A DNA stretch of 64,000 nt, from assembly GCF_000478195.2 (NCBI RefSeq), contig NZ_AUZM01000021.1, positions 1 to 64,000 of the forward strand. The letters are read 5' to 3'. The notes beneath the pieces were generated by a model, which saw only the letters and a program-made list of their open reading frames with translations, had not been told where the DNA came from and ran no database searches. This DNA comes from Lyngbya aestuarii BL J (GTDB lineage Bacteria > Cyanobacteriota > Cyanobacteriia > Cyanobacteriales > Microcoleaceae). Of the stretch, positions 14,536 to 19,046 are shown piece by piece; position 1 is the first letter of the stretch, and each line of letters starts with the position of its first letter. A program made the translations under genes and the position numbers.

Positions 14536-14739
14536 AAGCAACAACATGGATAGATCGAGTGTGCGCCCGCAGGTGATGCACCCCTATCTTCCAAAAAGCA
14601 AAGTTTCAGACAACTGAATATTGATGAACATTTAATCGTTAGTGGATCAAAGATTTAGTGATCGAGTTTTCGACTCAGATTAACATTCAGCTATCGAAGT
14701 TCATTGTTAAACAATAAACCTTCACACAAAAAGGAAAAC

Positions 14740-16593
14740 ATGGTTAAAAACGGAACAACACCCATCATTAAAAGTAAAAATTCAGTTCGTAAACCCCTCA
14801 GTAAAAGTGACGGGAATGGCTTAAAAATCATTCCTTTAGGTGGCTTACATGAAATTGGTAAGAATACCTGTGTGTTTGAATATGACGATGAAATTATTCT
14901 CCTCGACGCCGGACTTGCCTTTCCCACAGACGGAATGCACGGCGTTAATATTGTTCTCCCGGATGTCACTTATCTACGGGAAAATCGCCATAAAATCAAA
15001 GGCATGATCGTGACTCATGGTCACGAAGATCATATTGGCGGTATCGCGTTTCACCTCAAACAATTTGATATTCCCGTCATTTACGGCCCGCGACTGGCGA
15101 TGGCATTACTTCAGGGGAAATTAGAAGAAGCGGGCGTTTCGGATCGCACTGAGTTAAGAAGTGTTCGTCCCCGAGAAATTGTGAGACTTGGCAAGAGTTT
15201 CCTGGTCGAATATATCCGCAATACTCATTCAATTGCTGATAGTTTCACCGTAGCCATTAATACCCCGGTCGGTGTCGTCATTCATAGTGGTGACTTTAAA
15301 ATTGATCACACCCCAGTCGATGGAGAACACTTTGATTTTCAACGACTCGCAGAATACGGCGAAAAAGGGGTTCAGTGCTTGTTGAGTGATTCGACCAATG
15401 CAGAAGTTCCGGGATTTACACCCTCAGAAAGTTCAGTTTATCCCAACTTAGATCGGATTTTTTCACAAGCACCTGGACGTATTTTAGTCACCACCTTTGC
15501 CTCTTCAGTCCATCGGCTAAATATTATTTTGGATATTGCCCAAAAACAGGGGCGTTCAGTCGCCGTTGTCGGTCGGTCGATGCTGAATGTAATTGCTCAT
15601 GCCCGAAATTTAGGGTATATAAAATGTCAAGATGATCTGTTTATTCCATTGAATACGTTGCGAGATACACCCGATGATCAGGTGTTAATTCTCACCACCG
15701 GGTCACAAGGAGAACCGCTTTCGGCGATGACTCGTATTGCCAATGGCGCTCACCGACAAATTAGCATTAAGCAAGGTGATACAGTCGTCTTCTCTGCTAA
15801 CCCGATTCCGGGTAATACCATCGCAGTTGTCAATACCATTGATAAGCTGATGATGTTAGGCGCTAACGTGATTTATGGTCGTCATCACGGCATTCATGTT
15901 TCAGGTCATGGCTGTCAGGAAGATCACAAATTAATGCTGGCATTAACTCGTCCAAAATTCTTTGTTCCCGTCCATGGTGAACATCGGATGTTGATTAAAC
16001 ATTCTCAAACTGCTCAAAGTATGGGAATTCCTGCCGAAAATATGATCATCATCGATAATGGGGATGTTGTCGAACTGACCAAAGATTCTATTGGTGTGAT
16101 CGACAGAGTGAAAGCAGGGGTTGAACCTGTTGATTCTTCCCGCACAGGTGTCGTTAAAGATGATGTCATGCAGGAACGGCGTCAACTGGCTGAAGATGGA
16201 GTTGTAACCGTGGCAGTGGCGGTTGACTTGGAAGGTAAGTTAATTTCACAACCGAAGATTCATTTCCGAGGTGTCGTCACCTCTGTAGACCAGACTCTGC
16301 TACAGATGTCAATTAATAAAGCGATTGAATCTACTTTGAATAATCGCTGGTCAGAATTTGTACGGTCTTTTGAGGGTCAAAAAGAAGTAGACTGGGTAGG
16401 GGTAGAAACTCAAGTTGAACGTTCAATTGAGCGATCGCTCAAACGGGAACTTAACAGAAGTAATCCGTTAGTCGTGTTGCTGATGAATACCCCAAATGGG
16501 GATACCTCTGATCATGCTGAACAAGAGGAGAAACCCGCACCCAAAACAACCGGACGGCGACGGACTCGCACTGCGGCTAGAGTGGCGTCTTAA
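14740..16593 (+). CDS. rnj: Ribonuclease J
   Basis: This metallo-beta-lactamase/beta-CASP RNase acts as a 5'-exonuclease and endonuclease in RNA turnover. From the ATG at 14740 (617 residues) the zinc motif is THGHEDHIGG (His93, His95, Asp97, His98), followed by the beta-CASP region (DSTNAEVPG, TTFASSVHRLN) and the late motif SGHGCQEDH. The C-terminus ends in a basic Arg/Thr tail. An in-frame TTG at 14704 would add 12 residues, but AAAGGA lies just before the ATG, so the ATG is preferred. It is third in the asd-dapA-rnj series. Confidence 0.95.
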   Translation: MVKNGTTPIIKSKNSVRKPLSKSDGNGLKIIPLGGLHEIGKNTCVFEYDDEIILLDAGLAFPTDGMHGVNIVLPDVTYLRENRHKIKGMIVTHGHEDHIGGIAFHLKQFDIPVIYGPRLAMALLQGKLEEAGVSDRTELRSVRPREIVRLGKSFLVEYIRNTHSIADSFTVAINTPVGVVIHSGDFKIDHTPVDGEHFDFQRLAEYGEKGVQCLLSDSTNAEVPGFTPSESSVYPNLDRIFSQAPGRILVTTFASSVHRLNIILDIAQKQGRSVAVVGRSMLNVIAHARNLGYIKCQDDLFIPLNTLRDTPDDQVLILTTGSQGEPLSAMTRIANGAHRQISIKQGDTVVFSANPIPGNTIAVVNTIDKLMMLGANVIYGRHHGIHVSGHGCQEDHKLMLALTRPKFFVPVHGEHRMLIKHSQTAQSMGIPAENMIIIDNGDVVELTKDSIGVIDRVKAGVEPVDSSRTGVVKDDVMQERRQLAEDGVVTVAVAVDLEGKLISQPKIHFRGVVTSVDQTLLQMSINKAIESTLNNRWSEFVRSFEGQKEVDWVGVETQVERSIERSLKRELNRSNPLVVLLMNTPNGDTSDHAEQEEKPAPKTTGRRRTRTAARVAS

Positions 16594-16728
16594 AGTGTCG
16601 CTATCACTTCAATACCAAAGGATGGGTTGTTAACTGGCCTATCCTTTACCCTTGACTTTACCCTCGGTGATACTCGAAGTCCGCTAAAGCCCAACAACGA
16701 AGCTAAAAAAGATTTTTGGGGAAAGGGG

Positions 16729-16757
16729 TTGACAATCTCGCGAAAGCTCTGTACTAT
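16729..16757 (+). promoter_or_regulatory. Consensus sigma-70 promoter of the 5S rRNA gene
   Basis: TTGACA at 16729-16734 and TACTAT at 16752-16757 are separated by exactly 17 bases. This is the best-matching promoter I noticed in the window. It lies about 85 bp before the 5S rRNA and just after rnj, giving a leader of about 78 nt. No other gene lies between. Confidence 0.75.
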
Positions 16758-16841
16758 TAGTAATTGTCGAAGGTTACAGAAGAACGCGAAACAAAGCAAC
16801 TTCTGATTAACTCAAAGACATAAGAAAGCATTTTAAAGCTT

Positions 16842-16960
16842 TTTTGGTGTCTATGGCTCGATGGAACCACACCGATCCATCTCGAACTCGGATGTGAAAC
16901 GTTGACACGGCGAAGATACTTGGTGGGTAGCTGCCTGGGAAAATAGCTCGATGCCAGGAT
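16842..16960 (+). rRNA. rrf: 5S ribosomal RNA
   Basis: The sequence has the conserved 5S landmarks: TGGTGTCTATGGC at the 5' side, GGAACCACACCGATCCATC, CGAACTCGG, GTGAAAC, TGGGTAG and a 3' end in AGCTCGATGCCAGGAT that pairs with the 5' end (helix I). The length of about 119 nt is normal; the ends are set by the terminal helix and may be off by one or two bases. No 23S or 16S sequence is next to it, so it is an isolated 5S gene between rnj and nadC. Confidence 0.93.
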
Positions 16961-16966
16961 AAATAT

Positions 16967-17016
16967 AAAACTAGAGCTTCTTATCCAGTGATAAACGGAA
17001 AGAGGCTCTAGTTTTT
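16967..17016 (+). terminator. Rho-independent terminator of the 5S rRNA gene
   Basis: AAAACTAGAGC (16967-16977) and GCTCTAGTTTT (17005-17015) form a perfect 11-bp stem with a 27-base loop and end in a T-run. It starts seven bases after the 5S rRNA, so promoter, gene and terminator make a complete unit. Confidence 0.8.
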
Positions 17017-17045: not shown

Positions 17046-17933
17046 ATGAACGCAATTTTACCTCCCCCGATTGTTTTAGACCCGCTCCTACAACAATGGC
17101 TTTGTGAAGATATTGGTCGAGGCGATCGCACCACCGCGAGTCTGTTCTTGCAAAATCATCCGTTGGGAAGCGCTCATTGGGTGGTGAAAGAATCAGGAAT
17201 GGTGGCGGGATTAACAGTAGCGGCGCGAGTTTTTGAACTGTTAGACAGAGAAGTAAAGTTTACACCGATGATTACCGAGGGGCAATGGTGTGAAGCTGGC
17301 CAAATGATCGCCCAACTCAAAGGGCCATTAGAAGCCTTGTTAACTGGGGAACGAGTGGCCTTGAACCTAGCGATGAGGTTAAGTGGAATTGCGACCCTGA
17401 CAAACCGATACGCTGAAGCCATTGCTGACTTACCAACACAACTGGTAGATACCCGTAAAACCACGCCAGGACTGCGACTATTAGAAAAATATGCAACCCA
17501 AGTCGGAGGGGCAAAAAATCATCGTCTAGGACTCGATGATGCCGTGATGATCAAAGATAATCATATCGCAGCGGCCGGAGGAATACAAGCAGCGATCGCC
17601 CAAATTCGAGGAAGTATTCCCTATACTCTCACCATAGAAGTTGAAACAGAAACCCTCGAACAAGTTCAGACGGCATTAGAAAATAAAGCTGATATTATTA
17701 TGCTGGATAATATGCCGCTGAAAATGATGTCTGAGGCGGTGGAGAAAATACGCGCTGAAAATGATCGCATTAAAATCGAAGCCTCGGGCAATATTACCCT
17801 AGAAACCATCCGCAGTGTTGCAGAAATGGGTGTTGACTATATCTCAACAAGCGCCCCAATTACCCGTTCAACTTGGCTAGATTTAAGTATGAAATTGGGC
17901 GCGTGGAGATTGGGGAATGAATTATCCGTTTAG
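17046..17933 (+). CDS. nadC: Nicotinate-nucleotide pyrophosphorylase (quinolinate phosphoribosyltransferase)
   Basis: The enzyme makes nicotinate mononucleotide from quinolinate and PRPP in de novo NAD synthesis. The 295 residues fit the family. Visible motifs include EDIGRGDRTT near the N-terminus, TRKTTPGLR, and KNHRLGLDDAVMIKDNH, the substrate-binding signature. IEVETETLEQV and IMLDNM are the C-terminal barrel strands with the phosphate-binding acids. It starts about 30 bp after the 5S terminator. Confidence 0.96.
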   Translation: MNAILPPPIVLDPLLQQWLCEDIGRGDRTTASLFLQNHPLGSAHWVVKESGMVAGLTVAARVFELLDREVKFTPMITEGQWCEAGQMIAQLKGPLEALLTGERVALNLAMRLSGIATLTNRYAEAIADLPTQLVDTRKTTPGLRLLEKYATQVGGAKNHRLGLDDAVMIKDNHIAAAGGIQAAIAQIRGSIPYTLTIEVETETLEQVQTALENKADIIMLDNMPLKMMSEAVEKIRAENDRIKIEASGNITLETIRSVAEMGVDYISTSAPITRSTWLDLSMKLGAWRLGNELSV

Positions 17934-18008: not shown

Positions 18009-19046
18009 TTACTTAGAAATAAAATGAACCCAAAAATTACCATCAGGGATACAAAGTCGCCGAATTAATCCATAAGAATAATGTAGATAAGCACCACTTA
18101 AATCGGTACGATATCCCGTAGAAAACCACTCTCCATAGGGATCATGAACAATCAATCCATATTCATCATATCCAACCACGACAACGATATGACCAAAGGA
18201 GGTAAAATAACCGTGAATGACAGAAGGATTTCCTGCCGAAATCCAGTCTAGAACATCTTCAATAATGGCGTATTCTGTAAAATAATCTTGACAGCCATAA
18301 TCTCTAACAATTCGGGCTAAATCATAGGGATTGTGACGACTGTAGCCTCGGTCGAGTGCATACTCATACAGTTCATCTTCAAACTGTCCATAACTGAGCC
18401 GTCTGGATGCTTTTAAATACTCCAAACACATGGCAATTGAAGTCACATTACAGGCACCCGTCGGATTAAACCAATTATCAAGTTGATAACGATAGGGAAA
18501 ATTATTGATTCGATAACTTGTGGGTAAACGCTTAGGATAAACTAACTTATCCTCTTCATAAATTTCGGCATGAGGCCCCCAAATATATAACATCGAATAT
18601 CCACCGAAGCTTTCACTGCGAAGTGCAACTCTCAAATGTCCTCGAATCGGATCATGAGCCAAAATCGCAAACTCTTGACCTCCGGCTAGGGGAAATTTTT
18701 CGGAGTCGCTTAACTGAGAAGAAGCAATCGGTTTTACCTTGAAAACCGTACTTTTAACGGTTCTTAGAATGGGAGTAGGAATGGGAATATCTGCGAGTTT
18801 TGTTTCAATTAACTTCTCAGCAGTGATCGCACCTAAAAATCCCGGTTCACCACATTTCATTAACTTTTGAAACCGATGCAGGGCTGCCGTTGACTTCGGG
18901 CCAAATATTCCATCGGCAGGGGGATCAAGGAGTCCCAAATCAATCAGGCGAATCTGAATCTGACGACTCAGTTCGGGGTCAGCATCAATTTTCTTGACAT
19001 CATACTTGATATCTGTTCCCAGAAAGTCTTGTAATCTCATGCTCAC
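18009..19046 (-). CDS. Peptidoglycan-binding domain plus C39-like cysteine peptidase fold
   Basis: The 345-residue protein joins a PG_binding_1 type repeat (about residues 25-80, with PADGIFGPKSTAALHRFQ) to a C-terminal papain-like Peptidase_C39_2 domain. The likely catalytic residues are Cys199 in PTGACNVTS, His286 in SFGHIVVVVGY and Asp302 in VHDPYG. Between them lies a domain of unknown type (about 100-180). No signal peptide or transmembrane helix is visible. Wall binding plus a cysteine peptidase fold would suggest a wall hydrolase or peptide-cleaving enzyme, yet export is unexplained. The gene stands alone on the minus strand. Confidence 0.75.
   Translation of the reverse strand: MSMRLQDFLGTDIKYDVKKIDADPELSRQIQIRLIDLGLLDPPADGIFGPKSTAALHRFQKLMKCGEPGFLGAITAEKLIETKLADIPIPTPILRTVKSTVFKVKPIASSQLSDSEKFPLAGGQEFAILAHDPIRGHLRVALRSESFGGYSMLYIWGPHAEIYEEDKLVYPKRLPTSYRINNFPYRYQLDNWFNPTGACNVTSIAMCLEYLKASRRLSYGQFEDELYEYALDRGYSRHNPYDLARIVRDYGCQDYFTEYAIIEDVLDWISAGNPSVIHGYFTSFGHIVVVVGYDEYGLIVHDPYGEWFSTGYRTDLSGAYLHYSYGLIRRLCIPDGNFWVHFISK

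Follow-up and report, generated by a model that had tools for sequence, protein, structure and literature searches.

Introduction

5S rRNA is normally co-transcribed with 16S and 23S rRNA, which yields equal amounts of the three molecules without further control. The locus described here lies in a window of 64,000 nucleotides (the whole stretch of DNA analyzed) from the genome of a filamentous cyanobacterium (6.86 Mb in 437 contigs), and its 5S rRNA gene stands alone, which raises the question whether this gene is a spare copy, the remnant of a broken operon or a working source of 5S rRNA. An earlier note, made from the sequence of the window, had described a complete 5S rRNA gene with its own promoter, a leader of about 78 nt and a perfect 11-bp terminator, and had considered an independent control of 5S supply or an operon break as explanations. 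We conclude that the gene is very probably a functional stand-alone unit of a kind conserved in its family, which from the names of the scanned records and from the GTDB taxonomy we take to be the Microcoleaceae. Driven by an rrn-type promoter, it would provide mature 5S rRNA in trans and, together with two further units of the same genome, would form the sole source of this RNA.

Anatomy of the 5S rRNA Unit

The 5S rRNA gene (Table 1) matches the Rfam family RF00001 over the full length of the covariance model and above its curated cut-off, and it is the only Rfam match in the 64-kb window, in which the same search found neither a 16S nor a 23S rRNA gene. It is flanked by the gene for RNase J upstream and by nadC downstream, and the elements described in the earlier note were all recovered, the leader length being consistent with the predicted start of transcription. 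While the plain promoter consensus TTGACA-17-TACTAT occurs at chance level in the window (1 found versus 1.0 expected from shuffled sequences), the extended form GGGTTGACA-N17-TANNNT occurs once in the 64 kb, was absent from 100 shuffles and is found at the equivalent place in relatives. The terminator arms AAAACTAGAGC (16967-16977) and GCTCTAGTTTT (17005-17015) form the outer stem, which is lengthened inward in the predicted fold, and the predicted transcript has a folding z-score of -5.2. Equivalents of this terminator lie 3' of essentially every intact relative, with arms that have changed and are still complementary. The conserved promoter and terminator argue strongly, though indirectly, for a separate transcription of the unit.

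The end of the leader could also pair with the 5' strand of the 5S rRNA (16814-16855) as an alternative to helix I, and such a pairing is possible in other genera too, outside the Trichodesmium group. The folding z-scores of this hairpin are mostly between 0 and -2, with -3.4, -1.5 and -2.2 for the three units of this genome, and given these modest values we do not claim it as a feature of the unit.

Table 1. Coordinates of the 5S rRNA unit, its neighbours and the two further units of the genome (positions in the window unless a contig is named).
Feature	Position	Strand	Remarks
rnj (RNase J), upstream neighbour	14704-16593	+	Pfam RNase_J domains
A/T-tract upstream of promoter, UP-element-like	16705-16717	+	also 5' of family rrn promoters and of almost every one of the 49 aligned stand-alone units
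Promoter GGG-TTGACA-N17-TACTAT	16726-16757	+	-35 box 16729-16734, -10 box 16752-16757; recurs in relatives
5' leader, about 78-79 nt	16764-16842	+	predicted start, 7 nt past the -10 box
5S rRNA gene	16843-16959	+	RF00001, full model 1-120, 67.8 bits (gathering score 38), E 3.9e-12
Intrinsic terminator hairpin, then T	16967-17015	+	perfect 11-bp outer stem
nadC (quinolinate phosphoribosyltransferase), downstream neighbour	17046-17933	+	Pfam PF01729, PF02749
C39-like peptidase with peptidoglycan-binding domain	18009-19046	-	
Second stand-alone 5S unit	C15:106843-106959	-	
Third stand-alone 5S unit	C28:13441-13557	+	

5S and rrn Loci of the Genome

A genome-wide count of 5S and rrn loci and a comparison of the 5S sequences, both proposed in the earlier note, gave three 5S rRNA genes in a 5S search of the assembly, all of them stand-alone, the window copy differing by one base from the copies on contigs C15 and C28. 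Promoter, leader and terminator are present in all three units, and the neighbours of the C15 and C28 units differ from those of the window copy. The individual leaders differ as well, except that their 3' part (16814-16842 in the window, AAAGACATAAGAAAGCATTTTAAAGCTTT, about 30 nt) is almost the same in all three. Searches of the genome with the 16S and 23S covariance models gave no match because the operons are broken at contig ends; DNA searches recovered two 16S 5' ends (C39 and C1) and two 23S 3' ends (C93 and C49), so that at least two rrn operons are present.

Both 23S 3' ends lie on contigs other than that of the window. No 5S rRNA gene was found within about 2 kb past either of them in a permissive Rfam scan (E <= 0.5), and both contigs continue past the end, by about 20 kb and 48 kb, into ordinary non-rRNA sequence with no 5S, which leaves no linked 5S copy at the two ends found in this fragmented assembly. 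At one of the ends the usual spacer (...CTATGCAGTCTTC...) is followed directly by the hairpin CCTCTTTC...GAGGAGGTTTTGG, which looks like the operon terminator. Since both readable 23S ends lack a 5S rRNA gene, the cell apparently draws this essential ribosome component from the three stand-alone units alone; in an assembly of 437 contigs that does not span the rrn operons, a further operon with a 5S is conceivable.

The same fragmentation could hide normal operon copies beside which the window gene would be a redundant spare, and collapsed repeats would be expected to leave 16S and 23S unrecovered by covariance models, as is the case here. We regard this as very improbable, since the 23S ends lack a 5S despite the long contig sequence beyond them, since 16S 5' ends and 23S 3' ends were recovered in equal number, two of each, and since relatives of the same clade show no operon 5S. 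The latter include the complete Arthrospira genomes G009 and G015, in which no 5S follows any of the 23S 3' ends found and the 5S genes occupy other sites. Stand-alone copies that are additional to an operon 5S, as they are not in this genome, do occur in the genus g9, in Trichodesmium and Okeania, and in some Microcoleus.

Distribution in the Family

The shared architecture consists of an A-tract, GGGTTGACA-17-TANNNT, a leader, the 5S rRNA and a hairpin. A pattern of promoter, leader and 5S start matched 28 of the 30 sampled genomes of the family and none of the 261 genomes of the other families of the order, and the reversed pattern, used as a control, had no matches. The two family genomes without a match (G008 and G014) do carry the unit, with a leader that exceeds the length allowed in the pattern. 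When 84,980 species genomes were scanned with a stricter pattern, 43 loci were obtained, each of them in a cyanobacterial record, those with names being Planktothrix, Arthrospira, Microcoleus, Tychonema, Lyngbya, Okeania, Trichodesmium, Hydrocoleum, "Oscillatoriales" and "Microcoleaceae". In complete genomes of the other families of the order, the number of 23S genes equals that of 5S genes and all of them are adjacent. The stand-alone unit is conserved family-wide and is not an isolated operon break.

That the gene is a chimera of the assembly, or a 5S fragment inserted recently by chance, is suggested by nothing except its unusual context. This reading has a negligible probability and is already contradicted by other genera and single-contig genomes, whose orthologous units share both the architecture and the downstream gene. 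The earlier note would have given up its reading if a corrected assembly placed a 23S rRNA gene directly upstream; no 23S lies there, and the two other units of the same genome together with the orthologous units of complete genomes leave no room for an assembly error. What that note had missed are the three units of the genome, the two readable operon ends without a 5S and the conservation throughout the family.

Intermediate States and Probable Order of Events

Within the family, operon and stand-alone 5S genes are found in several combinations, for which 23S was located in many genomes by a 300-nt query of its 3' end and for which only part of the operons of G011, G016 and G022 is readable because some comparison genomes contain N-masked stretches. 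In g9 an operon 5S and a stand-alone 5S occur together and are 89-92% identical. Trichodesmium and Okeania have one 23S end with a 5S and another without, in addition to a stand-alone 5S whose identity to the operon copy is 79-85%. In Microcoleus the operon 5S is intact in four genomes (70-76 bits), and in two genomes of the Microcoleus vaginatus type (G016 and G280), which have three or four stand-alone copies, it is a decayed relic that is 71-75% identical to the intact gene and escapes detection by Rfam. Finally, no operon 5S was found at any readable 23S end in Planktothrix, Arthrospira, G004 and the genome studied here, a group in which most genomes have two to four stand-alone copies.

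In a tree of RNase J, Planktothrix, this genome, Arthrospira and G004 form one clade (support 100/99), which is apart from the Trichodesmium/Okeania and Microcoleus/g9 clades; the exact sister of this genome is weakly supported (87/70). Parsimony on this one gene tree, combined with the operon states, suggests one early gain of the stand-alone unit followed by at least three separate losses of the operon 5S. The operon break considered in the earlier note would hold in this evolutionary sense, with the stand-alone copy first and the loss of the operon 5S later, and not as an isolated event.

Local arrangements of the units vary too. In four Planktothrix loci (L072, L091, L097 and L103) two or three 5S units lie 0.4-3 kb apart upstream of nadC, and such close-set units suggest local duplication. 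In the Microcoleus vaginatus type (L083 at G016:C1:4718288-4728256, L116, L141 and L153), three or four units are clustered at a spacing of about 700 nt, and one clustered copy in G016 has neither promoter nor leader.

The nadC Neighbourhood

In seven or eight genera, nadC is preceded on the same strand by a stand-alone 5S rRNA gene, the pair being found in this genome and in Planktothrix, Arthrospira, G004, Trichodesmium/Hydrocoleum, G003, G007 and g9 at distances from less than 100 nt to 2.5 kb. Microcoleus contributes a single weak case, and in Okeania the gene of the C39-like peptidase, the next neighbour, is kept near the stand-alone 5S while nadC is gone. Based on this synteny across genera, the window copy upstream of nadC is probably the founding locus and the copy that best qualifies as the ancestral unit, and the C15 and C28 units would be later copies or arrivals. 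The C39-like peptidase gene is a conserved neighbour that adjoins the 5S-nadC pair in Planktothrix too. The RNase J gene was rejected as a conserved partner of the unit, since among the fetched loci it adjoins the 5S in this genome only.

The start of nadC is 30 bases past the 5S terminator in this genome (17016-17046) and about 68 bases past the 5S end in Arthrospira, and no sigma-70-like promoter was found between the two genes at the threshold used in the four genera with close spacing (this genome, Arthrospira, Planktothrix and g9). It is conceivable, if doubtful, that 5S and nadC form a transcription unit in which the rrn-type promoter drives nadC by read-through of the terminator; NAD synthesis would then be tied to ribosome production.

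Promoter Class, Control and Origin

The rrn promoter of this genome reads ...aaaaaaaagtttagaaaaaagg-TTGACA-17-TACATT-agtaaatg, and the 5S units have the same architecture as this 16S promoter. The family rrn and stand-alone 5S promoters have in common the A-tract, a purine run, TTGACA-17-TANNNT and the first nucleotides past the -10 box. Compared within genomes in a fixed register, the identity of 5S and rrn promoters is 0.60 in the upstream 25 nt versus 0.39 in dinucleotide shuffles (z 14.6) and 0.44 in the first 20 nt past the -10 box versus 0.32 in shuffles (z 7.1), values that are too high since the pairs are related and the shuffles ignore the fixed position of the A-tract. No clear similarity was found in the promoter spacer (z 1.9) or in leader positions 21-40 (z -0.8). 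As judged from these sequences, 5S and rrn promoters belong to the same promoter class.

A separate unit could allow 5S rRNA to be regulated unlike 16S and 23S rRNA, as the earlier note had proposed, and the physically separate promoter, the different leaders of the three copies and the number of stand-alone copies, which is two to four in most genomes of the clade that lacks an operon 5S, are in line with this. We nevertheless consider such an independent control unlikely in view of the similarity between the 5S promoter and the rrn promoters in these genomes. The shared promoter type favours co-regulation, and 5S synthesis is thus probably decoupled in cis and co-regulated with rrn in trans.

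In the stand-alone source that we prefer, the rrn-type sigma-70 promoter would give rise to a pre-5S RNA composed of the approximately 79-nt leader, the 5S and the terminator hairpin, at which transcription would end; leader and trailer would be trimmed by cellular RNases, and the mature 5S rRNA would be assembled in trans into the 50S subunit, alongside 23S rRNA from other loci. Transcription, processing and assembly of the 5S rRNA as well as its co-regulation with rrn are inferred steps of this scheme.

How the unit arose is a separate matter. An internal deletion of an rrn copy, by which promoter and leader start were fused to 5S and terminator, is compatible with a functional stand-alone unit and has somewhat less than an even chance in our judgement. 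Promoter, upstream tract and early leader are common to 5S units and rrn, and AGCTTT(T) is found just 5' of the 5S both in the g9 operon spacer and in stand-alone units; the dissimilar spacer and later leader speak against such a fusion, and members of a shared class of strong promoters would look alike without common descent.

Comparison With Known Systems

Stand-alone 5S rRNA genes also occur in Sulfolobus, other Crenarchaeota and some mycoplasmas, likewise as units of their own apart from 23S; the Microcoleaceae differ in being free-living, in having large genomes and in the survival of intermediate stages. Compared with the canonical cyanobacterial operon 16S-tRNAIle-tRNAAla-23S-5S, gene order through 23S and promoter type are the same here; what differs is the 5S, which is absent, decayed or retained in just one of the operons. 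Unlinked rRNA genes are known from bacteria, mostly as 16S genes apart from linked 23S-5S (PMC4972789; PMC9607299; PMC7761764). Thermus, Helicobacter, Wolbachia and other Rickettsiales, haemotropic mycoplasmas, and Pirellula and other Planctomycetes likewise have an rRNA gene that lies outside the rrn operon and is transcribed separately. While in most of these unlinked-rRNA bacteria the 16S separates and 23S and 5S stay together, it is the 5S that separates in the Microcoleaceae. For Thermoplasma, a stand-alone 5S with its distances is cited in PMC7761764. Francisella also has a 5S outside its rrn operons, an orphan that accompanies three complete 16S-23S-5S operons (PMC2737636), whereas here the units replace lost operon copies.

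The survey in PMC7761764 defines "unlinked" by an ITS length of more than 1,500 bp, and as we read it, a 16S-23S operon without 5S would count as linked, which exposes a blind spot of linkage surveys based on the 16S-23S distance. A literature search, with most subscription journals lying outside it, found no published account of 16S-23S operons that lack the 5S throughout a cyanobacterial family, an absence that does not prove novelty. An entire family of large-genome, free-living bacteria, including spirulina and the bloom-formers Planktothrix and Trichodesmium, appears to have switched its 5S source, with living intermediates for each step. It can now be tested whether rRNA stoichiometry depends on physical linkage or whether a shared promoter type and copy number are enough.

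Within one cell of Trichodesmium or Okeania, two 5S sequences coexist whose positions differ by about 15-20%. The pairs L060/L061, L077/L076 and L098/L099 each combine an operon and a stand-alone 5S with 79-85% identity in one genome, and such coexisting divergent 5S rRNAs may possibly give rise to ribosome heterogeneity.
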